A stretch of DNA of 64,000 nt, from assembly GCA_030374765.1 (NCBI GenBank), contig JARGXX010000001.1, positions 62,001 through 126,000 of the forward strand. The letters are read 5' to 3'. Below, in pieces: positions 13,322-63,959 of this stretch. Below the pieces are notes generated by a model. It did not search any database, was not told where the DNA came from, and saw only the letters and a program-made list of their open reading frames with translations. This stretch comes from Agarophyton chilense (lineage: Eukaryota; Rhodophyta; Florideophyceae; Gracilariales; Gracilariaceae). Made by a program: the position numbers and the translations under genes. Within the stretch, counting starts at the first letter, position 1. The number at the start of each line of letters is the position of its first letter.

Positions 13322-15076
13322 ATGCCCGTCGGCTTCGGAAAAAGCCGCCCATCGAAGGTACCCCCGCGTATAAAGCGCATCCTCCATTCCATGACACGCA
13401 CCCCGGCCGAAATCCTGGGTGAGTGCCCATTGCCACCTCTTTCGCCACCCCCATTCCGACCATCCCCTATTTCCTATGAAGCTGCCCTTGCCATCACGCT
13501 TCGCTTTCCTGATCCCATCACTATACTGGGAGAAGAGCCGCTTCCAAAGCACTTGCCGCTTCCAAGGCACTTGCCACCTATCAAGCCAAAGCTCAAGAAT
13601 CAGGCCCGGCTCTCCAGCGTTAAAGAGCAGTCAGTCGCTCCGCGGAAGAGAAAGAGGAAGGAAACCGACGCTCCTTCCGTCAAAACTACTGGTTTGAAGA
13701 GTGTTCTACCCCCGCTTCTACCGAAGAAGGGTGAAAGGAAAAAGAAGAAGTCGAGGTCCACGCTGCGTCGGAGCGAGTCGGAGTCTACTGCCTCTAAAGC
13801 ACCCAAGAAGCCTACTGCCTCTGTCCTTCTTTCGCCTCCCGCAGCTCGTGTTCTGCGTTTCTGCGCTGCTCCCGAGGCGGCCAAGAAGCCCTCATTTCCC
13901 ATCCCACTTTCGCGCCCTGCGGCTGATCGTCCCCGCGCCACTGTTGCTTCCACGCCGTCCAAGGAACTTCCTGCTTTCGCCCCGCTTTCACGCCCTGTGG
14001 CTCTCGTTCCTCGTTCCAAACCTGCTCCGAAAGAATTAATTTCACTTGAGTCGCCTAGAAAAAACGATTCTTCAAAGCTCAGCGCGGTCGAGGAGGAACA
14101 GAAAGTCCAGGGAACGACGCGGAAAAGAAGAAGAGATGGTGATTCTGAGAGAGAACGCAAGCAAGATACAGTTCACAAAAAGCGCAGAAGACATACCGAT
14201 CCTGCTCAAGCACAGAATAAGCAAGAAGAGGTCTCGAATAGCCATAAGAGACTCCCTCCCAAAGGTCTTTTTTCGTTCAGATCAGTTCCAGCTGAAAAGA
14301 TTTTGGGAGGACGTAAGCATATGATAACTAATGCACAGCGAGGGGGTGGCTACTCCAGTATGGAATATAAAAAGAAAGGAGAGAACAATCTTCATAAGAT
14401 CATGTCCACTACAATCTCACTTAATGATAAGAGGCTCTCTCCCAAAGGTCTTTTTTCGTGCAGATCAGTTCCAGCTGAAAAGGTTTTGGGAGGACGTAAG
14501 CATGTGATAACTAATGCACAGCGAGGGGATGGCTACTCCAATATGAAACATAAAACGAAAGGAGAAAACAATCTCCATAAGGTCATGTCCACTACAGTCT
14601 CACTTAATAATAAGAGGCTCCCTCCCAAAGGTCCTTTTTCGTTCAGATCAGTTCCAGCGGAAAAGATTTTGGGAGGACGTAAGCATGTGATAACTAATGC
14701 ACAGCGAGGGGGTGGCTACTCCAATATGAAACATAAAACGAAAGGAGAAAACGATCTCCATAAGGTCATGTCCACTACAGTCTCACTTAATGATAAGAGG
14801 CTCCCTCCCAAAGGTCCTTTTTCGTTCAGATCAGTTCCAGCTGAAAAGATTTTGCAAAAAAGTAAGCATGGGACAACAAATGCACAACAAGAGGGGGGCT
14901 TCTCCGATATGGAAATTAAAAGAAAAGGAGAGAACAATCTCCAAAAGGGCAAGTCTACTAAAGTCTCCAATGATTATAAGGGGCCTCCTCCCAAAGGTCA
15001 ATTTTCGTTCAGATCAGTTCCAGCTGAAAAGGTTTTGCGAGGAAGTAAGCATGGGACCACAAATAGTCGTTTTTAA
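13322..15076 (+). CDS. Basic nuclear-type protein with five 61-residue tandem repeats
   Basis: A 584-residue protein I do not recognise. The start at 13322 has a good context (CCGCCATG); another in-frame ATG lies at 13286. The N-terminal part has two ILGExPLP motifs (PAEILGECPLP and ITILGEEPLP), then basic clusters (PRKRKRKE, KKGERKKKKSR, KKRRRHTD) that look like nuclear localisation signals. Three Pro/Ala-rich segments follow (PLSRPAA and PLSRPVA types). From about residue 309 come five repeats of 61 residues with the core RLPPKGxFSFRSVPAEKIL, then KHxxTNAQ. The fifth breaks off after about 29 residues and the last three residues plus the stop come from an inserted element. The FSFRS-AEK core faintly recalls TPX2-type microtubule-binding motifs, but this is speculation. 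Confidence 0.75.
   Translation: MPVGFGKSRPSKVPPRIKRILHSMTRTPAEILGECPLPPLSPPPFRPSPISYEAALAITLRFPDPITILGEEPLPKHLPLPRHLPPIKPKLKNQARLSSVKEQSVAPRKRKRKETDAPSVKTTGLKSVLPPLLPKKGERKKKKSRSTLRRSESESTASKAPKKPTASVLLSPPAARVLRFCAAPEAAKKPSFPIPLSRPAADRPRATVASTPSKELPAFAPLSRPVALVPRSKPAPKELISLESPRKNDSSKLSAVEEEQKVQGTTRKRRRDGDSERERKQDTVHKKRRRHTDPAQAQNKQEEVSNSHKRLPPKGLFSFRSVPAEKILGGRKHMITNAQRGGGYSSMEYKKKGENNLHKIMSTTISLNDKRLSPKGLFSCRSVPAEKVLGGRKHVITNAQRGDGYSNMKHKTKGENNLHKVMSTTVSLNNKRLPPKGPFSFRSVPAEKILGGRKHVITNAQRGGGYSNMKHKTKGENDLHKVMSTTVSLNDKRLPPKGPFSFRSVPAEKILQKSKHGTTNAQQEGGFSDMEIKRKGENNLQKGKSTKVSNDYKGPPPKGQFSFRSVPAEKVLRGSKHGTTNSRF
14246..15064 (+). repeat. 183-bp in-frame tandem repeat, 4.5 copies
   Basis: Units begin at 14246, 14429, 14612, 14795 and 14978, a period of exactly 183 bp (61 codons) each time. 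Units 2 and 3 are nearly identical and units 4 and 5 more diverged, which suggests recent amplification or gene conversion. Unit 5 stops at 15064, where the 859-bp insertion begins. Confidence 0.95.
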
Positions 15077-15923
15077 TTAAGCTAAAATGGAGCATATTTT
15101 TAAACAAGGGTAGTTTTCCCAAATCCGCTGCTTAAAATAGCAAGAGCTAAACTATTATTTTTCGAGCTTGTTTGAAATAACCAAGATTTTAAGAGCGCGT
15201 TTCCCCGGATTTCACTAATTGCCTACTTTTGTTCCTGATCTATGCCGACCAGGACCACCTACACTTTACTTATCTCAAGACCTAGCTACAATGATCGCAC
15301 AGAGTAAAAACCATTTCTTTGGTGTCCAGTTTTCTCTTCTTAGATGCCCTTTCTTACTCTGCACTGGGTTTCCGTCGGACATTCATTACCTTGACTATCT
15401 TGTTTTGTGTTATTGTATAAAGTAAATTGCAATGATTTCGCGAGAAATGTATAGTTTTTTTTAAAAGGCATTAAACCAGAGTCTTGCTCTCGTATTTCTT
15501 AATACACATAAAGTTCTGAGCATCAAGCGTAAATTTTTTTTGTTCTCACGCAAGAAAATCATTTTCCGGGACCATCTTGGTCGCTGTCGCTGCTACTTAT
15601 GTCCACTAAAGTATCAAGACAAGTTGTGGTAGTCAGAAAAACCCCCAGTTGCATAAGCATGTCTGTGTGTAGGGAGGTCTGCGAGATTGGTTTGACATCA
15701 TTTACACAAAAAAAAGATCTATCGCTCAACGTCTGGTTTTCAGCTTACGCTTTGTTCTACATACGCATGCCCCCCACATACATCTTAATTGATGTGAATG
15801 ATATTATTATACGTTTAATACAAACGAAAAGTTGTCGAGAGTTTTTCTTTCATTTCAAAATAAGAACTGAGCTGAAAATAATACTCTAAATCGTAAGAAA
15901 GAACTCCTTAATTGAAAAGTGCT
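15065..15923. mobile_element. MITE-like insertion inside the 183-bp repeat array
   Basis: This 859-bp AT-rich block interrupts repeat unit 5: the array sequence stops at 15064 and resumes at 15924. Its ends are imperfect inverted repeats, with 15065-15081 matching the reverse complement of 15907-15923 at 13 of 17 positions. Flanking AAT and ACT could be a decayed 3-bp target duplication. It has no long reading frame, so it looks like a non-autonomous DNA transposon. Terminal AG...CT with a 3-bp duplication would suit a PIF/Harbinger-type element, but that is weak. Confidence 0.65.
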
Positions 15924-16186
15924 ACTGCAAAACGGGAGGGTGGCTTTTTCGATGGGTAAAATAACAGAAAAAAAAATACAATCTCCAAAACGTCATATCT
16001 ACTAAAGTCTCAAATGATTATAGGGGTCCTTTTCCTACAAGTCAACTTTTTGCAGATCAGTTTCAACTGATACGATTTTTGCAACAAAGTAAGCATATGA
16101 CAACTAATGCAAAACAAGAAAGTGGCTTCTTTATTTTAATTAAAGACAAGAAAGGATAGAAAAATCCCCAAAACTTCATGTTCAGG
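15924..16186 (+). pseudogene. Decayed continuation of the 183-bp repeat array
   Basis: About 1.4 further repeat units can be aligned by eye. TGCAAAACGGGAGGG matches the middle of a unit, the ACAATCTCCAAAA stretch at 15978 matches the end of unit 4, and AATGATTATAGGGG at about 16013 matches the start of unit 5. Substitutions and small indels destroy the frame. The original array therefore had at least six units, and the distal part decayed after being cut off by the insertion. Confidence 0.8.
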
Positions 16187-18010
16187 TGTGTACCGGCCAA
16201 TTTTGTCGCAGCACTTTGATCCAGCAATCCAAAGTTGACAACTGAAATCACTCACTCAACGCAACGTACTGGGAAGAATTTTGTGTCACCATTGTTGTTG
16301 TCTGCCGCAAATCGGGTTCCGCAGTTTACTCAGTACTCTCCAACAAATAAAACTATCAAAAACACAGCTCCAAAAACTAGATTCTGAGGGAAGAAGGTTT
16401 TTAAAGCATGTTGACACGCTCACAGAACTTGGTTATTCTTTTTCATCTTAAAAAAACCACAACGATTTCGAAGAGACAGCACTTCTTCTTTATAACGGTC
16501 TAAAGCCCCCAATTACGAGACTGTAGGGGTTACACTAATTAAAGCACTTCTTTTTCTTTCAAAAAGGCAAAAACTTTTTAAGCCATTGCCGAACTAAATC
16601 GTTGACGGTACGGCGGCTCTTTCTCGCAGTCGGGGAAGCTCTCGAAGACGAAAAGCGTTTGTCAAGTCACATCTTAGCACGAAAGATTCAGCATCTTTAT
16701 TTGTTTGTGTCCCACATTTGCAGCGGAGAACTTTTTTTTAAATACTTTACGACAGGGAGCATTGTCGGTACATGTTAAGGGAGGTACTGAGGAACAGCAA
16801 CCTCTGTTTTGCGAGATGTATGTTTATCTTCAATAAACTCAGGCCGTTCAAACATTATGATTGGGCATCTTACTTGTTCGGTAAGCGTTGCTTTTACGCC
16901 AAGCAGATCCAGGAGCACACTCACTTATTCTTCCAAAACCACGGCAAGTCCGAATTGCGCGAGTTTTTGTTTCCTTTTATTCCGGATAACTTTGCAGTGG
17001 CTCGGTTTCCAATAGCTTTGGACGTCACAACTCTCGGACAACAAAATCATTGCTTGAGCCAGTCGCTGTAAGCTGGCGCTCTGTGGTCGAAGATTTCTTT
17101 TAAGTGCTTTTAAAAGCGTTTGGGGGTTTGCAAATATGTTCGCAGCTCCCTGGTAGCGCTGCAGAATTTTAGAGATTGCGGCTGACATTGCAACAATATC
17201 GGTCGTGTCGCAGCAAACATATACACCTGCTGGAAACAATGCAGCTTCCGGTTCTGTTTTCGATCCCGACCAAATATTGTACGCAACAGCCCTCAAAATG
17301 GAAGCTTCTAGCATTCTCATTGGTTGAGCATGGCCATCCCCAACTATTATTTCTGAAACTCTTGTCCATGAAATGTAGCTTCTACATCAACTCATTTACA
17401 GAGGGTCTCCATCAATGGCGATGCATCGTTTTTTCGAGGTCAAAAAAGGTGTTCGGTGTTTTATTCAAATTACATCTCAAGAAAGAGACAGAGCTACGAC
17501 CGCGGAAACACATTAATTCCTGTGAATGGAAACTAGAAAAAACGCTTTGACATAATAAAGGCAACTTTTACGACGGTTTGGATCGCAACACATTGAAAAA
17601 TTGAAAACATCAGAGTGAATGCGGCTGGCTCGCTTTCGAAATCAACAAGTCCACAAAATCTATGATCTTACACAAGTTTTTACGAAGATTGCGAATGGAG
17701 TACAGAGCGATAAAAATTCGACATTGAGATGAAGAATGTATTGAGCATTCACATCGCGAGGGATCGGCTGTAAATGAAGAAAAGACTTTGACGAAGAGGA
17801 TTAAGGTCACGATAGCAATTTATTTGCACAATTATGGGTACATTGTTCTTTTGTTCGACACTTTAGAGTTAGATTAGACTTATGAAGACGAGCAGCCCGG
17901 TTATGAGATCAATGTAGTATAGTGAGCTACACCGATGATGTAATCCTGCCATGTGTTAGACCTGGGTGTTTGCCGTCATGCGCCGTGTACCACATTGGTT
18001 TGGTTTGCAA
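16187..18010. other. AT-rich gene-poor region
   Basis: Mostly AT-rich DNA without recognisable genes, apart from an unidentified frame on the minus strand at 16925-17320. It ends at the left inverted repeat of the 9.3-kb transposon. Confidence 0.4.
16925..17320 (-). CDS. Unidentified reading frame, possible gene remnant
   Basis: A 131-residue frame on the minus strand that I do not recognise. Composition is protein-like and not low-complexity: LEASILRAVAYNIWSG, then PAGVYVCCDTTDI, then a basic helical segment. The same frame stays open about 70 bp upstream of the first ATG (VSEIIVGDGHAQP), so the ATG may not be the true start. It could be an exon or remnant of a larger protein, possibly from a mobile element. 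Chance ORF remains possible. Confidence 0.25.
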   Translation of the reverse strand: MRMLEASILRAVAYNIWSGSKTEPEAALFPAGVYVCCDTTDIVAMSAAISKILQRYQGAANIFANPQTLLKALKRNLRPQSASLQRLAQAMILLSESCDVQSYWKPSHCKVIRNKRKQKLAQFGLAVVLEE

Positions 18011-19686: not shown

Positions 19687-22600
19687 CGCCCCACCCGAAA
19701 CCCCTTCCTCGCCACCACCCCGAAAGATGGCACTCAATTCCCACCTCCCACGAAGATCCCACGCGTTCAGACCGCAGACACCCGCTCCATCCATATCTCA
19801 AACCGCCTTTCCAACAACGTTCCGCTGGTTGAAGAGCACGACTACCATTCCACACACCTCGCTCTGGCCGTACGTTTCGCAGACGCCGCCCACATTCTCC
19901 ACGCTTCTCTTCGCTCCCCTTCTCCCAGCCCTTGCCCACCCGTGAAGCTCCATCCCATCGTCTTTTACATCTCATTAATCGCCACCAAGCTCGGCAAACG
20001 CAAAGCCAACGAACTCATCATCCTTCTCAAGGACCCCGAGTACTCCCAAACACTCATCCAACAGGTAACCTTCGTCTCCAACTGCCTTCAACTTCATTCC
20101 AAACTATTCGGGGACACTTTCGGCTCCATCGGCTTCAAATCCACAACCGTTTGTCACAATCCCTCAAACATCACTGCAACTCTCTACCTCAAAAACCCCC
20201 GTCCATGTCCTTTTCCAGCGACTCCGCTACGCCAATCGCGCTAACACCTTCTTCCAACCCTTCAGGTAGTGTTCTTCAGATGGTTCTCCTGCCCACGCTC
20301 ACCCCATGGCTTCAAAACTTGGCACATGTGTCTACCCGGACCTCCAACACCATTTTCTACTCTCAAGACTCAGATGTTATTTGGCACAACGCCGATATCA
20401 CTGGCATGGAATCATTAATTGGCTCCATCCAGCTCTCCTCAGACAAGTCGTCCCCCTCCCTCAAAAGCTCCTCTATCACCTCCTACCACCTTCACATCAC
20501 CCTCCTCAACTTTTCAGACTCCTTCCGCCGCCATTGCATCTCTCGCAACTACACCCTCCTCTGCTACTTCCTCACCTCGATCGACGCCCCTTCCTCCCCA
20601 TCCGACGAGGACTCCATCGAAGGCCACCCTCTTTCTTCAGTCATCAGCCACACTAACCGAATGGAACCCATCCAAGAATCTCTGCAAACCATCTTCGAAC
20701 CCATCGCTGCAGTCGCCCTCAAGGGTTTCCCTTTCCGTGATAAAGACCAGGTCATCCGAAAGTGCTACCCAGTCATCGCAAACTATGCTGCAGACATCTC
20801 TAAAGCAAAAGACATCCTCGCCATCCTACACGGCACAAAATCATCCAAGCCCTGCCACAGATGCCTAACACCTCGCTACGACCTCAACCTCCACCTCACT
20901 TCCTTATCCCCTCGAACCGTTTCTCACACCCGTCACACCAGGTTCACACACGATGCTCTTCTCAAAGATGCTAACGACGCCGAACAATTTCGCCGACCTA
21001 GCGTAGCAAGAACTCTCAGAGACCAGGCAGCATCTCTCCTCCACAAAAACTCCCTCTCCGCGTACCACTCCTTCTTCAAAACATATCCCTTTCCTAACAT
21101 ATCCCCACTCCTCACTCCTTACTCTATCTTCTCCTTCGAACCCCTTCAAAACTTCCATATCGGTATCTCAAAACTCGTCAAACTGGAATCCATCAAACGC
21201 TTGAAGTCCGACAGCCCCGTCACCACTGTGGCGTCCTTCAGAGCCTCCTCGAAATCCTTCAAAGCCTCCTCGAAATCCTTCAAATCCATCCGAAGCTCCC
21301 TTCTCACCCACGCGAACAACATCCTCGCAGATATCAAAGTCATCTTTTCCGCACCCTGATTGCACATCGACTTTTTCACACCGGACAAGGATACATCCCT
21401 AAACGGTTTCCTCACAACGGATGGCATCAAAGGCATGATCGATGCAAAAGACTACCGCGCTGTCGATATGGTCTTCCCCTTCATAGGTGCTTTTCTCGAC
21501 CGTTGTTGCGGTGAAATTGACACAGCTCCCATCACCTCCATCTTCACGGCATACGCAGACCTCTTCACCACCGCACTCTACCACAACCTCACCTCAGAAT
21601 GGAGCGACCAACGACTTTGCGAACTCCAAGAACTCAGCAATCACTTCAATTCTCTCTGCGTCTCCCTCCTCGCCCCTTTTCAAGCGTCTCACATCGGAAC
21701 ACTCAAGTTCCGCCTTCTAGACCATACCATTGCTGACATTGAACTATACGGAGGTCTTCAATTCACTGTCGCCGGCATCTACTAACACGCATACCCCTTC
21801 TTCAAAAACCACTACCGAAGCACATCCCGAAGATCTTCAACCGCTCCCAGAGAAACAATCGACGCAATTCAACTCACTGAAGGCTTCCCAAACTCAACCT
21901 CCATTCCCCACCACATTTCCTCCTCCTCAAACTCCTCCTTCTGTCTTGCTCGATGGCTTTCCATGGTCCGTGACGGTAGCACCATCCTCTTCCGCGACAT
22001 CATCACCGCAACGAAGTACCTCCGTGCAAACCAAACCTGCTCAAATGCCTCTCTCTCAAACATCTTCACCTCTTTTACCCTCTCTTTCATCACCCCAATC
22101 TCACGCGACGCCATTTCACCCTTTCACGACCTGTGCCTCGAAGCTCTCGTACTCTCTTCCTCTTCCCTGTCTCTCTCCTCTCTTACCTTCTCCCTCGTCA
22201 ACTCTGCCTTCATCCACAGCGGGTTCACCACCATCTCGCAAGACGTCGACCAAACATTCAACTGCATCCGCTTCAGAGAACCACCAGTCCCCGTCATAAA
22301 GCGCATATTTGCCACCCCAGCCTTCGGTCCTTCCAAACTTCCAAAGTCCTCCCATATTCTCGTCTCCAGTAATCCACCACCTAACTGCAACTTCCCCACT
22401 GTTTGGGTCTGCAAGCTCCTCGCCCTTCTTCGCTTTCCCAAAAATGATGAAGATCCTCACGAACGCAAGTGCGCTTTCGTCCTTTTCTTCGAACGCACAA
22501 CTGCCCTCGATCACGTGGGCCAAACCCTGAAGTGAATCACTCTCCGTTGGGCAACAGACAATGAACGGGACCACACCATCCTCTCCGCTGGAAACAGATT

Positions 22601-32815: not shown

Positions 32816-34114
32816 ACAGTGCGTTTCAAAAACATATCCCTTTACAAAAACTGCGCCAAAAAGGCATTTCACGTACTGTAGAGCACATTTCACAACAAAT
32901 AAAAATTACTAAGTCAATAACACTGTTTCAAAAGTATATCCTTTATACAATCATTCGCTCAATTATGGCTCGTGGCGCACCTCTGACACGCTCTGAACAG
33001 CTGGAAATCATGGAATTAGTAGGCCAGGGTATGATTCCAGCAGATATAGCCCAAAAACTCAAGCGCAGCCCAAAAACAATCAGCAACTTCATCAAAAACC
33101 CCGCTACATACGGAACAAAGCGTTCAACCGGCCGTCCTACAGCACTATCCCCGGCCGATAAGCGTGGAATTAAGCGGGAACTATGCCGCAACACTTCATC
33201 TTGCGGGAAAATTGTCAAAAATCTAAATTTGCCTCTATCAAGATCTACAATATGGCGTGAAGTCAACCGTCAAAATTTGTTCAAGTAAACAAAAATGAGG
33301 AAAACTTTTTTTAAAAGATAATCACAAGAAAAATCGAGTTGAATGGTGTGCTCAAAAGGCTTATTGGAAAACGGAATGGAAAAATGTTATCTTTTCCGAC
33401 GAGAAAAAGTATAACCTTGATGTTCCAGATTGCTATAAATTTTATTGGCATGATCTACGAACAGAAAAGAAGGAATTTGTGATTAGGCATTCAGGAGGCG
33501 CATCAGTAATGATTTGGGCTGGAATATCTACGAAAGGAGCAACTGATATGGCTTTTGGTGAAACTACAATGAACTCTGAGAAGTATGCTGAGGTTCTAGA
33601 AAACTATCTTTTACCTTTTTCATACTGTATGCACGGAGAAGAATTCATTTTTCAGCAAGATAATGCACCTGTGCATAAGTCTAATTCTATGAAACAGTGG
33701 TTCAATAGTCTAAATATGTCGGTTATGGAATGGCCTGCGCGCTCTCCTGACCTCAACCCTATCGAAAGCATTTTGGGAATGTTGGCCCGAATGGTTTATG
33801 GGCAAGGAAGGCAATTTGATACAGTTTTTTATCTGAAAAATTGTATCAAAGATTGCTGGGAAAAGATTGACTGTAATGTTATCAATCCTTTTATAGAATC
33901 AATGCAAAAGCGTTGTATAAGTGTTATACAGGCTAGAGGAGCAAAAATAAACTACTGAACTCGCGTTAGAATAAAAAGGATGCAATAAAGGTTATGATTT
34001 TGAAACAGTTTTTTTACTTGAAAGTTTTTTCACACTGATTTTGTTAGTTTTACTGTAGCCAAAACGTCGATTTTTGGAAAAGTTGCGCGAGGGATATGAT
34101 TTTGAAACAGACTT
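32816..34114 (+). mobile_element. Tc1-like DNA transposon with IR/DR ends
   Basis: A 1.3-kb element flanked by TA on both sides (32814-32815 and 34115-34116). Each terminus has two direct copies of a GTTTCAAAA-x-CATATCC repeat: outer and inner copies 102 bp apart on the left (32823 and 32925), and likewise on the right (34089 and 33988, reversed). This is the IR/DR arrangement of Tc1 elements such as Sleeping Beauty. It encodes one transposase, now interrupted. AATAAA lies at about 33984 near the gene's end. Confidence 0.88.
32965..33958 (+). pseudogene. Tc1-family transposase, interrupted
   Basis: The N-terminal part (to 33288) has a helix-turn-helix (LTRSEQLEIMELVGQG, then IAQKLKRSPKTISNFI) and a basic linker GTKRSTGRPTAL before a second HTH. 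The catalytic part, in another frame, has FSDEKKYNLD (first Asp), QQDNAPVHKS (second Asp) and ARSPDLNPIE (Glu). There are 34 residues between the second Asp and the Glu: DD34E, as in Tc1. An in-frame TAA at 33286-33288 is followed within about 30 bp by a frame change at a T/A run, so this copy should be inactive by itself. The catalytic triad is intact, so decay looks recent. Confidence 0.88.
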
Positions 34115-38697: not shown

Positions 38698-39351
38698 ATG
38701 GAAATTAACATGGATTGTAAAGCAAAACGGATCCGAATACGTAAGTTGTGTGGTTCATTTGCTCACGGTTCAATCTTCGTGATGATATCTCAAGCAATGT
38801 AATATCTTTCTGACATCTCTACAGAGATAACATATACGATGTTACCTTTGAAGAAAGATGCTTCTAACAATATCTGAAATGGATCTAATTTTCTCTTTTC
38901 TTGTTTGTAGTTCTAACCACCATGTCTGATCCATCCCCTGAAAGTTATGTACTCGCAATCTTCTATTTTTATGTGCTGAAGTGGGTTGTGTTGCGGGCGA
39001 ATGCGAGCCGTGGGCCTCTCGAACAATTTCTCCTCTGCAATGCATTAGAACGGTAGGTTCAATAAGATGGAATAGTCACAGCAGCTGGATGGATTCGATG
39101 ATGACAGACACCTAATTTACTTCTGACACTTCTCAAATGAGGCGCAGAAAAACTGCCCGATGACGGCATTTCCTAGGTTATCCCTGGCTGAGAATTATAA
39201 TCTGCTTTCTATGATGTCATCGCATACTTCAACTCTAACATATTTGCTTATTCGTCTTTGCAGGTCGAAGAAGGGAATTCAACGCACCATTGCAGTAAAA
39301 TGGTTCGAAATAGGGTCTGTTTCCCCAAACTGTTGTTGCGTGCCACCGTAG
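38698..39351 (+). CDS. Possible three-exon gene (90 residues), unknown
   Basis: Exons 38698-38740, 38911-39052 and 39264-39351 would be joined across introns GTAAGT...TTTGTAG (170 nt) and GTAGGT...TTTGCAG (211 nt), both with pyrimidine-rich acceptors. Both joins preserve one frame from ATG 38698 to TAG 39349, giving 90 residues. The product starts MEINMDCKAKRIRI, has a hydrophobic segment (SYVLAIFYFYVLKWVVL) and ends SPNCCCVPP. I recognise no domain. A start at ATG 38922 (context ACCACCATG) would make the first intron untranslated. Introns are otherwise hardly seen in this window, so this call needs transcript support. Confidence 0.35.
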
Positions 39352-44493: not shown

Positions 44494-47463
44494 ATGCCGC
44501 TTTTTCGTCGCAAGGACAAGCGAAAGCCGGTCGTGGATACGCATCGAGCAAGACAACTTCCTCTACGCGACAGAAACCCCCCACCTGCCCACGTGCCCCC
44601 GCAACAGCCTCGCCGGCTCAACACTGCCAGACGCGCCGATAAGGAGAACGGAAAGCCCGCCGACGACACCACGCACCGTAGATGGGCAAAGCGCGCCCCA
44701 CAGCAGGACCGGAAGCTCAATCGTCAGCGTCATCAGCCCGCAGTGCTAAAGAAATCCCTCACTACTGACCGTAGGCGCTCGGTAAAGGTTGCCGCCCCCG
44801 TTGTTGCGCAAGCACAACCCACCGCTCATAATGCTGTCAAGCACACTGCCGCTGCCCACAGAAAGCAGCGAACCAATGCAACAAATGTCATCGCTCAGCA
44901 GCAACAGCAGCAACAGCAACAACAGCAACAACAGCAACAACAGCAGCAGCAGCAACAACAGCAGCAACAACAGCAGCAACAACAGCAGCAACTCACTTGG
45001 CCTCACGTCGATCTGATACGTATTTTGAGAGCGAATGATGTCGCAGCGGCCGACATCCCCGTCAGACGAATTGCCGCCGCTGCCAGCCGCGATGATGCCA
45101 CACGCCTCAAGATGATTCGAGAGGGAGTGGCTGCCGCCTTGGTCACTTTGCTGCGAACGGAGCATACCACCATTGACATGCGTCGCAACGCCGCATTTGC
45201 CATCGCTGAACTCGCAGTCCTCGAGGCTTGTGAAGATGAGCTTGTTGCTGCCGGCTCAGTGCCACTGCTCATCTGGTTCATCAATCACGCCAACAATCGT
45301 GATCGTTCTACGCTTGCGAGTGCCTGTCGCGGCTTGCGCAATTTGTTGGGCGGCAAGCAAACTACCGCTGTCCAAGCTGTTAAGTACGGTTGCGTAGAGT
45401 ACCTCTTGGCTATTATTGACGGCCGAACCGGCAGGGAACAAGATGCGGACATTATCGTCGAAGCCACGGCCGCCCTTTCGAACCTTTGCGGCCACGGATT
45501 GCGTTTTCAGCGCTACGTCATACGACACGGCGGCCATGCTGCGCTCACCACCCTCGGTATGCGCACTGAGAACGAAGAGGCAATGTTTCACGTCGTCAAT
45601 GTGCTTGCTGAATTTGCGCGCGAGTCAAGGTGGTTGAAGGATATTATTGCCTCTGATGGCTTGAGCACAGCCTTTCGGGCGCTCCAAATTGCCAGGGATC
45701 CAGAAGTTGTCGCCGAAGCATCCCGCCTCATAGGCAACATGGCAGTCACTCAGAAGGCGCGTGTGGCTGTCAGGGAGGCCGGCGGACTTCTTGCGTTACT
45801 TGACAGATTGATGCGATGCAAGTCGTTCAAGGAGGTCGTTCCGTCTTATGATATTGTGCGGGCTGTCGCCAATGTTTGCATGGATGGCAAGGCGGCATCA
45901 GAGGCTCTCACTCAGCGCGATGCGGCTGGCGTTTTGTTGCAAGTGTTTACCGCGCCAGATGCCCCGGAGAAACTCATCCAAACGGCCTTTCGAGCGTTGC
46001 AAGTCCTCGCGCACGGCAGCAAAACCAGGCAGTCAAAAGTGCTCTACGCGATTGGCACTCAAGTTAAATCGGCTGGCCTTGCCGGGCTACCCGTGAAAAG
46101 ATTATACGACTTGCGGCAAGTCATTCTGGAAGAATACCAGGGCAGTGGCGACAGGGATCGGACCGTCGCAATGCCAGAGAGTCTGGAACGACTGTCAAGA
46201 GCATCGGTTCGACTAATCAATACCGGTGTACTCAACCACTCCAGAAGCAATCTTGCGTATTCGAAAGCCGCGGGGGCGCGTCTTATGCAAGGACATGCCC
46301 CCGCAAATGCTGTGCAAAAGGTTACAGACGCTACTTACCAGAATGGCGACCGGCCGAGCGGGCATTCGCGTCCTGGTCCAAAGAACACCAGTCTGAATCG
46401 CAGATCGAGCAGACATCCGGAAGCTTTCAAGTCTACTGGGCGAGTTGTTTCGGTTATCCATCCTCTCAAGCAAACTTCGAAAACGAAGCTCGTGGCTGAG
46501 GGGCGTGCTGATGATGATGACTCCCATGAGCTACCCCGGGGCAACGAAGAGGCTATGGAGAGCGATGCCGTCATGAGAGCACGAATGCTCGAGCGCGAAG
46601 CGGACGGCAACATGACGCAGGACTTCTTCGAAATTGGTCAGGTGCTTGGTAGAGGAGGCTATGGCGCTGTGTTTATGGCGAAGGATGTTCGGACAGGAGA
46701 GATCGTCGCCATCAAGAGGTTCCACAATAGTGGCGCGCTTGTGGATAAGAAGGCGATTAAGGAGCAGAATATCTGGAAGGGTCTGCATCATCAGAACGTT
46801 GTGGAATTCAGAGGCAGCTTTGTCGGCGATAATGGGACGCTGAATTTGGTGGTGGAGTATGTGGACGGACTGAGTCTTGCTGATCATCTTTCGCAATACA
46901 CCGCCTTCCCTGAAACTCTGGTGGCAGAAATTGTAAGACAGGTTTTGTGCGGTCTTGAGTATTTGCACGCAAATGGAGTGACGCATCGGGACTTGAAACC
47001 CGCCAACATTCTTGTGACCCGAAATGCTGCAGTGAAGATATGCGATTTTGGGGTTAGTCGATCGGAAAACGTTCAAACTATAAACCCGGGGCAACAGCAT
47101 ATGGTAGGAACTCCATGGTACATTGCCCCTGAGATGGTAGAATACAGACCATACACAACAAGCGTGGATATATGGAGTCTGGGCTGTACCGTTCTTGAAC
47201 TAGCGACAGGGAGAAGACCGTATCATGAACTGAGTGCGATGCAAGTACTCTTCCGTATGGTCGAAGACCGTCGGCCACCGATCCCATCACATTTGAGTGC
47301 AGAAGCAAAGGATTTCCTCTGCTCTTGCTGGGTATGGGATCCTCAGGAAAGACCCTCCGCGCATGACCTCTTGCGACACCCCTTCATTCTCAAAGCGCGA
47401 AAGTTTAGTGATTCCTCAAAGCAATCATCTGTCGGCACTAATGGAAGTACTATAGAGACGTGA
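44494..47463 (+). CDS. ARM-repeat protein with polyQ tract and C-terminal protein kinase
   Basis: A 989-residue protein when started at ATG 44494 (MPLFRRKDKRK); ATG 44254 would add 80 mostly proline-rich residues. The order is a basic tail, a 32-Gln run (135-166), armadillo-like helical repeats (about 168-480, for example RRNAAFAIAELAV and EATAALSNLCGHG), a disordered linker, then a Ser/Thr kinase (about 713-965). Kinase motifs are all present: GRGGYG (719), VAIK (K741), HRDLKPAN (H831), DFG (D851), GTPWYIAPEM and DIWSLGC. The kinase is STE/MAP3K-like (Cdc15/MAP3K-epsilon flavour). Those relatives carry the kinase first and ARM-type repeats after it; here the order is reversed. It probably acts as a scaffolded signalling kinase. 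It is convergent with the kinesin gene at 48415. Stop TGA. Confidence 0.85.
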   Translation: MPLFRRKDKRKPVVDTHRARQLPLRDRNPPPAHVPPQQPRRLNTARRADKENGKPADDTTHRRWAKRAPQQDRKLNRQRHQPAVLKKSLTTDRRRSVKVAAPVVAQAQPTAHNAVKHTAAAHRKQRTNATNVIAQQQQQQQQQQQQQQQQQQQQQQQQQQQQQQQQLTWPHVDLIRILRANDVAAADIPVRRIAAAASRDDATRLKMIREGVAAALVTLLRTEHTTIDMRRNAAFAIAELAVLEACEDELVAAGSVPLLIWFINHANNRDRSTLASACRGLRNLLGGKQTTAVQAVKYGCVEYLLAIIDGRTGREQDADIIVEATAALSNLCGHGLRFQRYVIRHGGHAALTTLGMRTENEEAMFHVVNVLAEFARESRWLKDIIASDGLSTAFRALQIARDPEVVAEASRLIGNMAVTQKARVAVREAGGLLALLDRLMRCKSFKEVVPSYDIVRAVANVCMDGKAASEALTQRDAAGVLLQVFTAPDAPEKLIQTAFRALQVLAHGSKTRQSKVLYAIGTQVKSAGLAGLPVKRLYDLRQVILEEYQGSGDRDRTVAMPESLERLSRASVRLINTGVLNHSRSNLAYSKAAGARLMQGHAPANAVQKVTDATYQNGDRPSGHSRPGPKNTSLNRRSSRHPEAFKSTGRVVSVIHPLKQTSKTKLVAEGRADDDDSHELPRGNEEAMESDAVMRARMLEREADGNMTQDFFEIGQVLGRGGYGAVFMAKDVRTGEIVAIKRFHNSGALVDKKAIKEQNIWKGLHHQNVVEFRGSFVGDNGTLNLVVEYVDGLSLADHLSQYTAFPETLVAEIVRQVLCGLEYLHANGVTHRDLKPANILVTRNAAVKICDFGVSRSENVQTINPGQQHMVGTPWYIAPEMVEYRPYTTSVDIWSLGCTVLELATGRRPYHELSAMQVLFRMVEDRRPPIPSHLSAEAKDFLCSCWVWDPQERPSAHDLLRHPFILKARKFSDSSKQSSVGTNGSTIET
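44896..44991 (+). repeat. CAG/CAA microsatellite encoding 32 glutamines
   Basis: 96 bp of mixed CAG and CAA codons, in frame within the kinase gene. The mixture of codons makes slippage less likely than in a pure CAG run, which suggests the polyQ tract is maintained at the protein level. Confidence 0.97.
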
Positions 47464-48414: not shown

Positions 48415-50544
48415 TCAGGTAGATATATTAGTTGCCGTGGAAGGTACTTTGTGCCCGCCTATCATCCGGTCATACACGCCTTTCTGCGTATACCCATAAC
48501 CGTAAAAGTTCTTAAAGGCCTTCCAACCTTTCGGTTTCTTCTTAGGTTTCTCAGCCGAAGAAGTATCACGAGAATCGTCACTTATTCTGATCGACAACTC
48601 AGATGTTACCATCGCGAGTTTATGACGCTCCTCCTCAGAATCTGTTTCATCATCGCCCATTATATCAGCAAGAATAGAATGGTCCGTCTCTGCTTCGGAG
48701 TCATCTATTTCAGCGACCATATCCTCAGGAAGTGGTCTAGGTCTTCGAGACACCGAGCGTACGGACCGCTGCCCGTTTAAAGTAATTCCCTCATTCGTAC
48801 TGTCCATCGTATCCGCCTCAAGACGAGCAGTGGACACACCTCTCGCATCCGTGATAACCGAAAGATCCGACACATTACTTTCCCTCCGTTCCTGACTATC
48901 ACTAGTCAAATCCGCCAGAGCATCAGTGCTCACCAGATCATCAAATGCGTTCTTGCTTCCCGGTAGCCAAGATTGCAAGCTCTTACTGAGCTCTTCGAGA
49001 TACCCCTCAGCCTTCTTGACGTGGGCGCCCTTCTTTCTCGAAACCTCTAGCTGCTGCCGAGCTTCCTCGAGCTTCTTGAACGAAAGGGCAAGTGCTCGAC
49101 GGACAGCTCTTTCACTATGCCGTGCACGGCGCGACGATGAGCGTAATTCAAGGGCGCGCTGGCGTAGCCCACGGAACTCTGATGCTTTCTTTCGCAGCGT
49201 CGCTCTGAGATGATCATTCTCGGTCTCGACTTCATCAACATGCTCCTTGAGATACTTGACCTCCTCCTTGGCGGCCTCCAATTCGACGGATACTGCGATG
49301 GCGTTCGCGGCCTCCACGCCGGAATTGAGCTGCACGGTAGACATGTCAAGCTTGGGGCCTGAGCCGGACATCTCTGTGAAGGAACTGCTGGCTGATTGTG
49401 TATCGCCACTCCTCGCGTTGCCGCCGCTGCGCAACTCAGTTAGTTCGGATTCCATGGCTTGATATTGTTCACGCAAAATTGCAAGCTCCGTGGCAGCTTC
49501 CTTGTATTTTGAACGGTAATCAACGACTTCATTCCGAACGGCAGAATTTGTGACTTTCTTCGCTCTCTCGGCAAATTTGAGCGTGCTAACGGTCTCCTCC
49601 ACATGGGAAGCGGACGGAGTGACAGCGCACATAATAGCGGTTTTGGCATTTCCCCCCAGAGCCGGCCTCAACAAGCGGGTCAGCTTCGAATCACGGTATG
49701 GTAGATGTCCATACTTGCCAGGGTCTCCGTTTGCAGACGAGAGACGATTAATAATAGTGCCCAGCACTAGAAGCGATTTGTTAATATGTGCGCCTTCCTT
49801 TTGTCGCGCACCTTGCGCGCCAGTGGACTTCAACCTCTCCGAACCGGCAAGATCGACGAGATTGAGACTGCTGGCACGAAAACTCTGGTCGACGCCATCG
49901 CCGCCCTTTGATTCAATCTGCAAGGTGAAAATGGTGTGACTACGACTACTCCTGGCATTCATTTTGGTCTCACCGACCTGTCTTGCGGCTTGCCCCTTCT
50001 CCAAAACGGCCATAGCATCCTCATAAGTCTCTACTATGGTCTCCTCGGCATCGACGAAGACGCGGCCTGCCTTGTCCTCCCTGACAACAAGATCGCCGCG
50101 TAGCGGATTCATCAAGTCTCGAATCTTGTCATTATAAATCTCGACGTAAGCAGCGCGAATGAGGTAGGTGCGCGTCTTGGAGGCCGAGGCAGTGCGCAAC
50201 ACATGCTTGATGGCAAGCGGGGTGAGACCTGGGTCAGCGGCGTGACCCAACATGGTATGCGTCTTGCCTGAGCTTGTTTGACCGTAGGCGAAGACGGTGG
50301 CGTTGAAGCCGCCCAGGGCAGCGTCGACGATGGGGGCGGCAATACTCATGTATACTTCGTCGTTGGTGGAGTCGGGGGGAAAGATGGCGTCGTACATAAA
50401 GGTGGAGGCGGTCTTTCTGTCGTTTGCGGGGCGTTTGCGCGAGATTGTGTTGGCTTGCACAGCCCATGCGGAACCGGTGGCGGAGACCTTTTCGCGGTCA
50501 TTGAGCGGGCGGACGCGGACGCCGACGACGACGCTATCCGTCAT
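48415..50544 (-). CDS. Kinesin-7 (CENP-E)-like motor protein
   Basis: A 709-residue N-terminal-motor kinesin, taken from the ATG at 50544 (MTDSVVVGVRVRPL). An in-frame ATG at 50637 would add a hydrophobic 31-residue leader that is probably untranslated. The motor domain (about 1-330) has VRVRPLN, P-loop GQTSSGKT (88-95), switch I NARSSRSH, switch II DLAGSE and the neck-proximal TLKFAERAKKV. A coiled coil of about 200 residues follows (KYKEAATELAILREQYQAM onward), then an acidic Ser-rich tail and a basic, aromatic C-terminus (KKKPKGWKAFKNFYGYGY). The motor signature suits the kinesin-7 group, plus-end motors linked to chromosomes or division. It shares a promoter region with the divergent kinesin at 51403. 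Confidence 0.9.
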   Translation of the reverse strand: MTDSVVVGVRVRPLNDREKVSATGSAWAVQANTISRKRPANDRKTASTFMYDAIFPPDSTNDEVYMSIAAPIVDAALGGFNATVFAYGQTSSGKTHTMLGHAADPGLTPLAIKHVLRTASASKTRTYLIRAAYVEIYNDKIRDLMNPLRGDLVVREDKAGRVFVDAEETIVETYEDAMAVLEKGQAARQVGETKMNARSSRSHTIFTLQIESKGGDGVDQSFRASSLNLVDLAGSERLKSTGAQGARQKEGAHINKSLLVLGTIINRLSSANGDPGKYGHLPYRDSKLTRLLRPALGGNAKTAIMCAVTPSASHVEETVSTLKFAERAKKVTNSAVRNEVVDYRSKYKEAATELAILREQYQAMESELTELRSGGNARSGDTQSASSSFTEMSGSGPKLDMSTVQLNSGVEAANAIAVSVELEAAKEEVKYLKEHVDEVETENDHLRATLRKKASEFRGLRQRALELRSSSRRARHSERAVRRALALSFKKLEEARQQLEVSRKKGAHVKKAEGYLEELSKSLQSWLPGSKNAFDDLVSTDALADLTSDSQERRESNVSDLSVITDARGVSTARLEADTMDSTNEGITLNGQRSVRSVSRRPRPLPEDMVAEIDDSEAETDHSILADIMGDDETDSEEERHKLAMVTSELSIRISDDSRDTSSAEKPKKKPKGWKAFKNFYGYGYTQKGVYDRMIGGHKVPSTATNIST

Positions 50545-51402
50545 GGTTGCGGCGGCGCCCAACGTGAAGAAAGCGAAGAGAAAAGGGAAAGTGGAAAGAG
50601 CGCAGCAAGAAAGGCCGCAAAGCGGCGCGGGCGGCAACTAACGAGGAAGAAGGGCGGCAGGCGGGGGTGGGGCGCACGCAAAAAAGCAAGCGCGCTGAAA
50701 ACGGACACTAGGTGGCAGGTGCTCAGACGCGGCAGGCGGCGGCAGGCAGCGGAAGCAGGGGGAGCGGGCGGAAGCACGGACACGCAGTTGAGACAGCAGA
50801 ATAACGAGCAACGCAGAAGACGCGGCTTGATGGGACGACACGAGGGCCTCCTCAGCGGTAGCAGCACTCGCGCACAATGGGGCACCTGCGCTACGGCGCG
50901 AGCATGCGCCGCCTGCAACAGCAACAGCAGCCGCAGCAGCCGCGGCACGCGCCGTGCTGCTGGCACCCCGCAGCTGACGTCGCGCTGCACGCAACGTGGC
51001 ACGCTCGATTTGCGCGCCGATTTGTGCGCTGATTTGTGCGCAGCGGAGCTGCAGCACTGCCGCGCTCGCTGCGCCTCCGCGCTGGACACGTGCGCCCGAC
51101 CATTGTCGTCTTCTTTTTGTTTTGAAGTTTTAAATTTAAACCAATGCATTCCGCTCGCGCCCTTTGGCGCGCCCTTCGTGCACATTCGTCCCTGGCGCGC
51201 CCATTTGCGATTAGCTGCGCCTCTTCGCGCCAGCGCTCCCGAATCGAAACCTCCGTCATTTCATCCGCCCTCTTCCGCCCTCCCTCTTCCGCCCGCCCTC
51301 TTCCGCCCTCTTCTACCCTTTTCCGCGCCTCGACGCTCTTTCCCTACCGTTGCGGCGGCTCACCGCGCCACGCCCCGCTGGTGCCGCCCGCCGCACCCAC
51401 CG
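50545..51402. promoter_or_regulatory. Shared region between divergent kinesin genes
   Basis: 858 bp between the two start codons, GC- and CpG-rich, with a pyrimidine-rich stretch before the plus-strand start. Frames are open on both strands but are Arg/Ser/Ala low-complexity, as expected from CpG-rich DNA. Co-regulation of the two motors is an inference. Confidence 0.45.
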
Positions 51403-54400
51403 ATGGCCGACGATGGCGCCGTTGCACAGCAGCATGCTCTCTCTGCCTCTGCCTCCGCTCCTTCCTCCACTTCCTCCTCCTCCGACGCCGTTCAGGTGTC
51501 AGTGCGAGTCCGCCCGCTTAACGCGCGCGAGAAGGCCGTGCATCTCAACCCGTCGCTGCCCACTTGGCAGCTCTCACCATCCTCCGTCACCCAGAGCGTC
51601 AACCAAAAGCCAGTGCTCGCCAACTGCTTCGCCTTTGACCACGTCTTCCAGCCCGGCGTGCACAACACCATCGTATTCGATGCCATAGCCAGGCCGGTCG
51701 TCGCCTCAGCTATTGACGGCATCAACGGCGTCATCTTCGCATACGGTCAGACCGCTGCTGGAAAGACCTACACCATGTTAGGAACCGAAGAAGACCCCGG
51801 TGTTACGCGCCGCTCCATCTCCCATGTGTTTCAGTTGATTTCGCAATGCTCGAGCCGTCAGTTTCTGTTGCGCGCAAGTTACATCGAGATATACAATGAA
51901 ATCATCCGCGATTTGCTCGTTCCTGCCAATGATAACTTGCGCATTCATGAGGACGTCATTAACAAGCGTGTATTTGTCGACGCACGCGAGGAGGTCGTCG
52001 TGTGTGTAGACGATGTCATGCGCATTATTTCCGCAGGGGAGCACGTCAGGGCTGTCGGAGAGACCAATATGAACGACCGTTCTTCGCGTTCGCACACCAT
52101 TTTCACCCTCAAGATCGAATCCAGGGAGACTACTTCGGCTGACGCCGAGGAGGATGCGCTCAACATTCAGAATGACGGCGTTGCAATTCGCGCAAGCACA
52201 CTCTCCCTGGTGGATTTGGCTGGTTCTGAACGCGCCTCCTTCACAAAGGCACAAGGCATGAGACTGGTTGAAGGCGGCCACATCAACAAAAGTCTGCTTA
52301 CTTTGGGCACAGTCATTAACAAGCTCAGCTCAGGCGAATCTCGCAACGCTTCTCACATTCCATACAGAGATTCGAAGCTTACGCGCTTGTTGCAGCCCGC
52401 GCTGGGTGGAAATGCACGGACCGCCATCATCTGTGCAATCACCCCATCCACTTTGCACATGGACGAGACGCTTAGCACGCTCAAATTTGCGAGTCGCGCC
52501 AAGAAGGTCACCAATCATGCGCAAACCAACGAATTTTTGGACGACCGTGCCAAGCTGCGCCGCGCCGAGAAGCAAATTGCGACACTGAAACTCGAGGTAC
52601 AGAAGCTAAAGCAAGGCAATGGATCTGTAGATTGTTCTCATCTGTCCCACCCTTTGCAATCTATTCACCTGGACCATTCCGCCAGAATACGAGCTAGCGA
52701 AGGCAAGTTTGACAAACTCTTATCGTTTCTCATGCATAATGGACAGCTTCAAATGGAAACACCGGCTGTTGTACGGACACATAATGGAATTGGAGCATCG
52801 ATTTCTTTGCGTGATGCGTTAGATTTGTGTGTACCCAACAGACATTCCAGAACAAGTGTCACAAATGCAGATGACGGACAGGAGCAACAGCTTACAGAAA
52901 TGCGTCTCAAACTGATGCAAGCCGAAAGTGACAGACATCGTGCCCTTCTTGAAATCGAATTCGAACGTCGAGCCATGAGTGAAGAAGTCGGTGCGCTAAT
53001 CTCTTCCAGTGAACAAGCAACGCGGGAAAGATTGGCTGCGGAAAAAGAGTGCGAAGAAGCCTTGACGACATTGGCAAGAACCCAAGCGGCATCTTTGGTC
53101 GATGAGATTGTTACGGATGCCATGAACACTTCATCACTCACGACTGAAGTGAAGAAGGCCCATCGCAAACTTTCCGCCATGGAGGCTGTAAAGAAGGAAA
53201 GAGAGGAGTTGAACGCCCAACTAAGAGCTGTGCAGAAGGAGCTTTCGGACATGCGAAGGCGTGAGAAGCGTGGGATAGGTCCGGTAATGAAGGAAGTTCG
53301 TCAAGAACATAACAAGCGTGTTGAAGCGGAAACCAAACTAAAGGTAACGAGAAAGCAACTGCAAACCTTCAAGACAGAAAAGGCATCTATGATCAGAGAG
53401 AGAAATGATATGGAACGCAAAATGAAAGCATTGACGTTGGAAAATGAACGTCATAGAGGTCATACCGAAAAGGCGCAGTCCAGAATTGAGAGGGTAGTTT
53501 CTGAAGTCAAGAAGGAACTTCAAGCGTCGCTTGACGAAAAGAACAACGCATTGTCAAAGGCGCTGGAAGAGCAGTCAAAATCGACAGAGCGGCTCAATGT
53601 ATTGGAGAAGCAAGTTACCGTTCTTATGGAAACCAATGCCAGATTGTCTTCTGAGCTGAGCTCCGCTACCGATGATAAAGAGTCAGCAGAAGAGGAACTC
53701 GTGAGAATACGGGACCGTATCAAAACGCTTCAGGAACAGGTTCAAGAAGGGCGAACGTATGCAAACGGTCTAACCGAGCAGCTGGGGAAGGTGCACCTCG
53801 ATTTGGAGGAAAAGAAGTCTGAACTAGAAGAGTCACTTAGAAAAAGAAGTGAAACAGAAAAGACGGAATTACGAGCATCTCGGCAAGCTTTCACGGAATT
53901 GGAGGTTCGATTCATTCAATGCGAGAAAGCAATATGCAGTCTGAAGGATACCGTTCAGAAACGCGACGAAGGCATGGTTGCTTTAGAGGACAAGATGACC
54001 GTCATGGAAAAAGATCTTGCGGAGCATGTGCAAACAATAGAGAAACTGCGGCACACATTGAAACAAGCGAAAGCAGCTCGCGAAGCAGCAGAGGCAGAAA
54101 CGGTGTCGATCAGAAAGGAGATGTCATACGAAATTAAACAACTGCAAGGATGTCTCGAAAGTGCTCAAGAGGCAAAGAGAGAACGGAGAAGTGGGCTGGA
54201 GGATAGCTTGAAGCTTCGCGAAATGTTAGATGAAACAGAAATTTATTTGGCGGATGAAAGATCAAAGTCGAGAGCAATGAGTGAAGAAATTGAAGAACTC
54301 AGAAGAAAGGTTGAAAGTCTGTTGTCAGAAACAGAGACGAGAATGAAAGAACTTCATCGGGTAGCTAGCAAACTTCGCGCTCGGGACGAAAAAATATACG

Positions 54401-54837
54401 AGTTGGAGGATACACTAAGTGAGTGGAGTCGAGGTCAAGGCCTCGTAGCATGCTTGAGGGAACGGATAACTTCGAAAGACATGGCGCTTGAAGATATGAG
54501 GTTGCAACTGAGTGTGCTAGATAAAATTTTGAAAGAGCGAGATCTTGCCCCTATGTACAAGGACGCGGAAGAATTTATGAAACTCAGGAGTCAGGCGATT
54601 GTCTTGGAGCGAGAACGTGATGATCTGCAGAGAAAAGCAGACACCCTCGAAACGGAGAAAGTGGAGCTTATTAAAGAGACCTACAAACTTCGGAAACGAA
54701 TAAAGCTGCACGATGGAGAAAGAATCGAAAGTGCAATCAAGAGAAAGACGATTGAGCGAGAAGAATTTCAGGAAGAGAGTAGAAAGAGACAAGTGTTGCG
54801 GGAGCTTGACGTAAACAACAATAATGTAAACGATTGA
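51403..54837 (+). CDS. Kinesin-7 (CENP-E)-like motor protein with long coiled coil
   Basis: 1,144 residues from ATG 51403 (MADDGAVAQQH). The open frame extends upstream to 50278 but crosses the divergent neighbour, so that part is rejected. After a Ser/Ala-rich leader the motor (about 29-370) has VSVRVRPLN, P-loop GQTAAGKT (115-122), switch I NDRSSRSH, switch II DLAGSE and TLKFASRAKKVTNHA. From about residue 380 nearly everything is heptad-rich coiled coil (Glu/Lys/Leu/Arg), ending in a basic patch (RKRIKLHDGE). Architecture and motor resemble CENP-E: a dimer with a long stalk moving to microtubule plus ends in mitosis. It shares many motor stretches with the kinesin at 48415 (VGETKM/VGETNM, RSSRSHTIFTL, HINKSLL). 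Confidence 0.92.
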   Translation: MADDGAVAQQHALSASASAPSSTSSSSDAVQVSVRVRPLNAREKAVHLNPSLPTWQLSPSSVTQSVNQKPVLANCFAFDHVFQPGVHNTIVFDAIARPVVASAIDGINGVIFAYGQTAAGKTYTMLGTEEDPGVTRRSISHVFQLISQCSSRQFLLRASYIEIYNEIIRDLLVPANDNLRIHEDVINKRVFVDAREEVVVCVDDVMRIISAGEHVRAVGETNMNDRSSRSHTIFTLKIESRETTSADAEEDALNIQNDGVAIRASTLSLVDLAGSERASFTKAQGMRLVEGGHINKSLLTLGTVINKLSSGESRNASHIPYRDSKLTRLLQPALGGNARTAIICAITPSTLHMDETLSTLKFASRAKKVTNHAQTNEFLDDRAKLRRAEKQIATLKLEVQKLKQGNGSVDCSHLSHPLQSIHLDHSARIRASEGKFDKLLSFLMHNGQLQMETPAVVRTHNGIGASISLRDALDLCVPNRHSRTSVTNADDGQEQQLTEMRLKLMQAESDRHRALLEIEFERRAMSEEVGALISSSEQATRERLAAEKECEEALTTLARTQAASLVDEIVTDAMNTSSLTTEVKKAHRKLSAMEAVKKEREELNAQLRAVQKELSDMRRREKRGIGPVMKEVRQEHNKRVEAETKLKVTRKQLQTFKTEKASMIRERNDMERKMKALTLENERHRGHTEKAQSRIERVVSEVKKELQASLDEKNNALSKALEEQSKSTERLNVLEKQVTVLMETNARLSSELSSATDDKESAEEELVRIRDRIKTLQEQVQEGRTYANGLTEQLGKVHLDLEEKKSELEESLRKRSETEKTELRASRQAFTELEVRFIQCEKAICSLKDTVQKRDEGMVALEDKMTVMEKDLAEHVQTIEKLRHTLKQAKAAREAAEAETVSIRKEMSYEIKQLQGCLESAQEAKRERRSGLEDSLKLREMLDETEIYLADERSKSRAMSEEIEELRRKVESLLSETETRMKELHRVASKLRARDEKIYELEDTLSEWSRGQGLVACLRERITSKDMALEDMRLQLSVLDKILKERDLAPMYKDAEEFMKLRSQAIVLERERDDLQRKADTLETEKVELIKETYKLRKRIKLHDGERIESAIKRKTIEREEFQEESRKRQVLRELDVNNNNVND

Positions 54838-63168: not shown

Positions 63169-63171
63169 GCC

Positions 63172-63959
63172 TGGAATGGAGTGCAGAACAGGTTGAAATG
63201 CTTCACCATAGGAATCATTGGTGTTACAATTCGCGCGAGGGATCCCAATTTCCTGTTCAGATTCATCTCTGACATTACTTCCTTGATTTCACAGTATGTT
63301 GACTGAACGTTTCTTCCGGTGGTGCATTGGGTTTCTTGTACCTCATCATTTTTAGAGGATGTATCCCCTCCATTTCCTTCTAGATTGTCTTCTGGTCTAT
63401 CTTGATTGGCGGATAAACGTCCAAGGGATTGAATCGGTGGTGGTGGAGGGCTATTTTCTCTCCCAAGAGTACACTCTTCTTGTGACATAATCAAACCGCT
63501 TTTGCTTCTCGGAGACAAGTCTTCACCATGCGAGGAATTGATGGAATCCTGAATATTTCGCACTGCATCTTCTATACCAATTTCTTCGTCGGCCGCCACA
63601 GGCTCTTCGTCAGTCGGGTGCTCACTCAGGTCATCAAAACATTCGAATTGGTGTTATTTCGTTTGCCCCTCCTTCAGCTTTGGGCCCCAAGTAAACAGTC
63701 CACGTCCAACCCGTTTCCGACGCCTGTTGGCCTCCCGACGATGGTTCCGCACCGTCGACAGGCTCACTGGCTTTCCTATTCTACATCGACATTGAAACCA
63801 CGGAGGACACGCATACCGCTCCATTGTTTGAAAACATTCATTCACGGCAGTCAGTCTTACTTGCCTCACAATTTCGAGGAGCAAAATGAATTCAATTCCT
63901 GAAAAGTGAAGATGAAGACATAGAATAGAATAAACTGAAACTTGGCAGTTAGGTGGCAT
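63172..63959 (-). pseudogene. Probable 5' part of the CACTA transposase gene
   Basis: Upstream of the 917-residue frame, another minus-strand frame carries protein-like sequence. First comes a Cys/His segment (YACPPWFQCRCRIGKPVSLS, then TVRNHRREANRRRKR) resembling the N-terminal zinc-binding domain of such transposases. Then, in the same frame after a TAA at 63654-63656, comes an acidic spacer (DDLSEHPTDEEPVAADEE) running to about 63230. Introns or decay could explain both the stop and the frame change. An intron-like GTAACA...TTCCAG pair at 63227-63171 does not fix the phase (57 nt), so decay or another splice site is needed. Confidence 0.4.

Follow-up and report, generated by a model that had tools for sequence, protein, structure and literature searches.

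The open frame, the repeat array and the inserted element

The window, a stretch of 64,000 nucleotides which comprises bases 62001-126000 of contig C1, contains an open frame (P0001) that carries a tandem array of a 61-codon unit near its end and closes inside a transposable element, beyond which lie the decayed remains of the same gene (Table 1). Contig C1 begins with a CCCTAAA-like repeat, which puts the gene about 75 kb from an apparent telomere. The genome searched for relatives is the assembly of 79.76 Mb in 135 contigs to which the window belongs. Elsewhere in the window, a CAG/CAA run detected by Tandem Repeats Finder at 44896-44992 encodes poly-glutamine within a 1124-codon frame that by eye resembles an armadillo-repeat kinase, and two head-to-head frames at 48415-50637 (minus strand) and 50272-54837 (plus strand) show kinesin-like motor sequence, likewise judged by eye. 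Phycobilisome-type genes point to a red alga as the most likely source, although glaucophytes and cryptophytes have them too; they give 15 matches in the assembly, 14 of them on contig C39, where the same match (892-aa frames) is found at 38796 and again at 224480, 185,684 bases apart, as if this plastid contig ran round its circle more than once.

Table 1. Features of the truncated gene and of the sequence downstream of it, in window coordinates.
Feature	Position	Strand	Basis or remark
Open frame P0001, 584 codons, truncated gene	13322..15076	+	translation; ATG falls at the start codons of three paralogues in the alignment
N-terminal conserved block (TRTPAxILGExPL ... SYEAALAIT ... LLGExPLPK)	13343..13711	+	paralogue identity, tblastn
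Unit 1, 61 codons	14243..14425	+	Tandem Repeats Finder and unit comparison
Unit 2, complete, 61 codons	14426..14608	+	Tandem Repeats Finder and unit comparison
Unit 3, complete, 61 codons	14609..14791	+	Tandem Repeats Finder and unit comparison
Unit 4, complete, 61 codons	14792..14974	+	Tandem Repeats Finder and unit comparison
Unit 5, first 30 codons, broken off by insertion	14975..15064	+	Tandem Repeats Finder, unit comparison, element ends
Dispersed element, 857 bp	15066..15922	.	TA on both sides (15064-15065 and 15923-15924); genome copies, end comparison
Remainder of unit 5 and unit 6, both decayed	15925..16160	+	15927-16105 shows 4 frameshifts relative to units 4-5
Relic: second short motif and first part of C-terminal domain	16163..16481	+	paralogue alignment
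Second interruption	16482..17439	.	16482-17122 is 73% identical to C105:1040705-1041344, the single other place in the genome
Relic: remaining C-terminal domain	17440..17916	+	5 stops, 3 frameshifts

Translation from the ATG at 13322 meets no internal stop in 584 codons. The product is a basic protein with NLS-like stretches, so that the description of it as a basic nuclear-type protein, given in an earlier note on this DNA, holds at the level of the sequence. The N-terminal block is 53% identical to the paralogue on C24 and C93 (residues 8-140, E 9e-23) and 43% and 42% identical to two paralogues on C105. No frameshift relative to the paralogues was found in 102 and 107 alignable residues, which are all that this comparison covers, the middle of the frame having no alignable counterpart in the paralogues.

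The array is reported by Tandem Repeats Finder at 14244-15053 with a period of 183, 4.4 copies, 89% matches, 0% indels and a score of 1221, while the remaining 16 rows for the window score only 50-132. The period of 183 bp and the preservation of the reading frame, both claimed in the earlier note, are thus borne out. Its other descriptions of the array stand in part. The core is nearly constant, as had been said, except that unit 2 has S in place of P and C in place of F. Units 2 and 3, described as almost identical, are indeed the closest pair (95.6%), but they do not form a class apart, because units 1 and 2 and units 1 and 3 are 92% identical; units 4 and 5 are 88% identical and the other six pairs 81-84%. 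An array does occupy the extent that had been given for it, 14246..15064, but this extent misses both the frame end, which is located inside the transposable element, and a remnant of the array beyond the insertion, at 15926-16108, where a sixth unit region retains 76% DNA identity to the array end.

The element interrupts unit 5, and its end supplies the stop codon TAA at 15074-15076. The match of unit 5 to the other units ends with the codon AAT at 15062-15064; the C-terminal S, R and F of the encoded protein and the TAA are contributed by the TA together with the terminus of the inserted element. The termini are the imperfect inverted ends GTCGTTTTTAATTAAG and CTTAATTGAAAAGTGC. Copies outside the window account for 18 of 19 genome match rows and fall into at least 11 places by our own grouping (C68, C22, C1, C105, C95, C80, C79, C92, C4 and two on C77). 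When 10 places were compared, nine copies were found to begin at the equivalent of window position 15062-15070 and one at 15097, and four to reach 15919-15927. Three of the nine other 5' ends are exactly TAGCCCTTTTTAATTAAG, and TA stands at the boundary in 5/9, or in 6/9 if a one-base shift is allowed; three of the four other 3' ends finish in CTA (e.g. CTTACTTAAAAAGGGCTA). TA is absent from the remaining three 5' ends and one 3' end, and a target duplication is therefore no more than possible.

The length of the insertion can also be estimated from the array itself. With 20 trial lengths of 850-869 bases, the unit-to-unit match is restored best by the removal of 861 bases (154/216 positions), compared with 126/217 for 860 bases and 130/196 for 862. 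The element plus one TA amounts to 859 bases, so that a 2-base change has to be assumed. The nearest known counterparts of the element are non-autonomous Tc1/mariner-like elements (TA target, short inverted ends). No second pair of ends of this type with at most 4 mismatches occurs within the window, including the vicinity of its DDE_3 gene. Transposon genes identified with Pfam lie in the window at 3-1160, 19833-21356, 33299-33955 and 60418-63288, and comprise an integrase (rve, H2C2), Plavaka, DDE_3 and tnp2.

The paralogous family and the decayed downstream region

The genome contains a small family of paralogues. Those that are open throughout are a C24 gene of 639 aa (C24a) and two C105 genes of 817 and 940 aa (C105b and C105c), and they have in common a conserved block at the N-terminus, a long charged middle in which 1-4 motifs of the [FL]RSxPA type occur, and a C-terminal domain, likewise conserved and some 200 residues long, which is 74% identical between C24 and C105. 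A further copy, C24b (on C24 and C93), is broken into frames of 151, 254, 287 and 227 aa. Contig C93 holds a twin of the C24 region that is 99.87% identical over 9.87 kb (regions L027 and L028, at C24:44600-54500 and C93:499200-509100; C24 measures 62.6 kb), so that C24 may represent an alternative haplotype or have arisen by recent duplication. The two C105 genes (C105:24500-39400) lie in opposite orientation, and one of them has no detectable 61-aa unit. Matches at C1:781143 (E 0.069) and on C71 (E 0.58) in the N-terminal search, and on C116 (E 0.95) in the C-terminal search, were too weak to be counted as family members.

A genome search with the 61-aa unit returned 10 rows, all within this family: five are the units of the window, four fall in genes on C24 and C93 (two per contig) and the last in a C105 gene. 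C24a, C24b and C105c each have a single segment to which the unit can be aligned, and it was not found in C105b; the homologous single segment spans the short motif GPFAFRSVPADKIL to the next motif, RKPMLRSVPAS. Since the segment is single in these three paralogues, the array is a local expansion of one segment in a truncated copy, and the proposal that it represents an independent repeat family is not supported. The short motifs, counted strictly as [FL]RSxPA, occur four times in the window protein, four times in C24a (which has four short motifs at a spacing of 42-56 residues), once in C105b and twice in C105c, compared with means of 0.003-0.004 and a maximum of 1 in 2000 shuffles of each protein. 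The core FRSxPAxKxL, which C24a, C24b and C105c share, may still be an older conserved motif.

The window gene shares with this family the N-terminal block and the [FL]RSxPA motifs in a basic middle. Its C-terminal domain is present only as relics, and the gene is for this reason termed a truncated member. Matches to the domain that contain stops were found at C1:78356-78493 and 79440-79916 (window 16356-16493 and 17440-17916). When the relic region is aligned with the C105 protein, 307 protein positions are covered and 7 stops and 8 frameshifts appear; with the C24 protein the corresponding figures are 264 positions, 7 stops and 4 frameshifts. The position of the sixth unit beyond the element fixes the order of events, with the expansion preceding the insertion.

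Selection, decay and the fate of the truncated gene

The differences between the units carry no excess of synonymous changes, an outcome that the earlier note had itself named as refuting its view of the repeat, and maintenance of the units by selection is not supported. The pairwise dN/dS of the units ranges from 0.66 to 2.21 over 10 pairs, and the maximum likelihood omega for the 61 codons, computed on a unit tree fixed beforehand as ((1,(2,3)),(4,5)), is 1.16, which does not differ from 1 (p = 0.67), while a value of 0.3 is rejected (lnL lower by 8.9). Omega is 1.34 for codons 1-21 and 1.06 for codons 22-61, and variable DNA positions between units number 11/63 in the core versus 37/120 in the rest (p 0.054), again with no synonymous excess. 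As a control, the C-terminal domain of two paralogues yields an omega of 0.168 (p 2e-18 against 1). An omega near 1 in combination with the absence of stops and indels is accounted for if the array was constrained to remain in frame, with its residues nearly free, while the C-terminal domain was attached.

The best explanation of the locus, and in our judgement a highly probable one, is that a gene from a small family encoding basic proteins has been truncated here: a segment expanded, a TA-flanked element inserted and the C-terminal domain decayed, with the 5' frame remaining open. Tandem multiplication of a 61-codon segment around one motif would have yielded six or more units, after which a DNA element bordered by TA at either end would have landed in unit 5, where its inverted end furnished a stop codon. 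The C-terminal domain would thereby have been severed and would then have decayed, as the frame upstream remained open. The middle of the family proteins, which are probably nuclear, would be an unstructured linker bearing docking motifs, and multiplication of the segment would alter the number of these motifs or the length of the spacer between them. (An AlphaFold model of the array has a mean pLDDT of 35; it was built without an alignment and is thus no demonstration of disorder.) The shortened protein, if it is made, would lack the C-terminal domain but retain the docking motifs and the N-terminal part, and could compete with the full-length paralogues.

Whether the open 5' frame is still in use can be approached by comparing the two halves of the locus. 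The stop rate of the relic predicts 7-8 stops in the 307 codons that precede the array, where none is observed, and the array, with 55 parsimony changes, contains 0 stops and 0 indels compared with 5.4 lesions expected under neutrality (2.74 stops and 2.65 indels, the latter from the ratio 67/1390 in the element copies; P 0.0046), both figures presupposing that the two halves have had equal time to decay. Given equal decay time, the missing stops suggest that the shortened protein may have continued in use. The stronger proposition, that the truncation created a working gene, a short multi-motif form which has been maintained and which antagonises the intact paralogues, is tentative and on balance improbable.

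The same figures count, on the same premise, against the reading of the whole locus as a dead pseudogene, in which the open 5' frame would be due to luck or to a recent death of that part. This reading agrees with the many breaks in the C-terminal domain, with the two interruptions of the locus, with the unit omega of about 1 and with the existence of a likewise broken family copy on C24. It also agrees with the estimate for the window branch of the N-terminal block (92 codons), 0.485, which is indistinguishable from 1 (lnL -865.71 vs -866.41); a single omega for three genes in this block is 0.32. We consider it doubtful.

Searches for named families and comparison with known systems

The protein, the unit and the paralogues had no match above the cut-off in Pfam or in NCBIfam, the latter being a bacterial and archaeal collection, and the assertion that the repeat matches no known family is correct within Pfam, PDB sequences and NCBIfam. 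A scan of viral contigs gave 166 pattern matches and no relative, and a search of literature available in part brought up no publication on this gene family. The weak matches that did appear were put down to chance, in the case of FGGY_C_2 (17.6 bits against a cut-off of 27, E 0.0032) and Zip (8.8 bits against 35.1, E 1.2) on repetitive basic sequence; K-box, SpoIIE_N and BRE1, ribosomal protein L3 and others among PDB sequences (best E 0.038) and a polysaccharide deacetylase model (E 0.19) were likewise taken as chance.

A very improbable reading is that the family consists of AF4/FMR2-type elongation scaffolds, in which the C-terminal domain would correspond to the AF4 homology domain and a kinase would be recruited through the LLGExPLP motifs. 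It was suggested by a resemblance, judged by eye, of the C-terminal domain to AF4 family C-termini, and local alignment scores lie somewhat above those of shuffles (reached by 16/300 and 10/300 shuffles). The global scores are not above shuffles (z -0.6 and 0.5), hhalign with an AFF4 chain assigns probabilities of 2.9% and 1.8% to a stretch that is not colinear, and Pfam listed no AF4 family at E<=10 for either the proteins or the domain. PF18876 has no match in the genome at E<=10, and the control genomes are blank too.

Least probable of all, and scarcely credible, is a TPX2-like protein in which each unit would bind a microtubule, a guess made in the earlier note; FSFRS-AEK bears a slight resemblance to plant TPX2 motifs. 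Neither the protein nor the unit has a TPX2 match in Pfam at E<=10 (the filters of HMMER remove most matches above about E 0.1), and the single PF06886 match in the genome falls below the cut-off on another contig (C95, E 0.0046, 23.1 bits vs 25), although this genome search taken alone is not strong because 14 control genomes gave no match either.

What was put forward as a new repeat family is thus converted into an ordered series of ordinary events, namely duplication, unit expansion, insertion and decay, and a small protein family has been uncovered that drew no name from Pfam, NCBIfam or PDB sequences in the searches performed. Should the truncated frame be in use today, the locus would clearly exemplify the making of a shortened protein by the end of a transposon.

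Among systems with which the locus can be compared, the closest are the paralogues themselves (C24a with its C93 twin, C105b, C105c and the broken C24b), which share with the window gene the N-terminal block, the basic middle, the [FL]RSxPA motifs and the C-terminal domain, but in which the unit occurs once or was not found, as opposed to at least six times, and three of which are open through the C-terminal domain. The inserted element resembles non-autonomous Tc1/mariner-like elements in the TA that flanks the window copy, its imperfect inverted ends and its dispersed copies, and is set apart by its 857 bp and by the lack of a further pair of ends in the window at up to 4 mismatches. With the TPX2 family (PF06886) the likeness lies in the basic character of the protein and its series of short aromatic-arginine motifs, although no profile match connects that family with the window protein.
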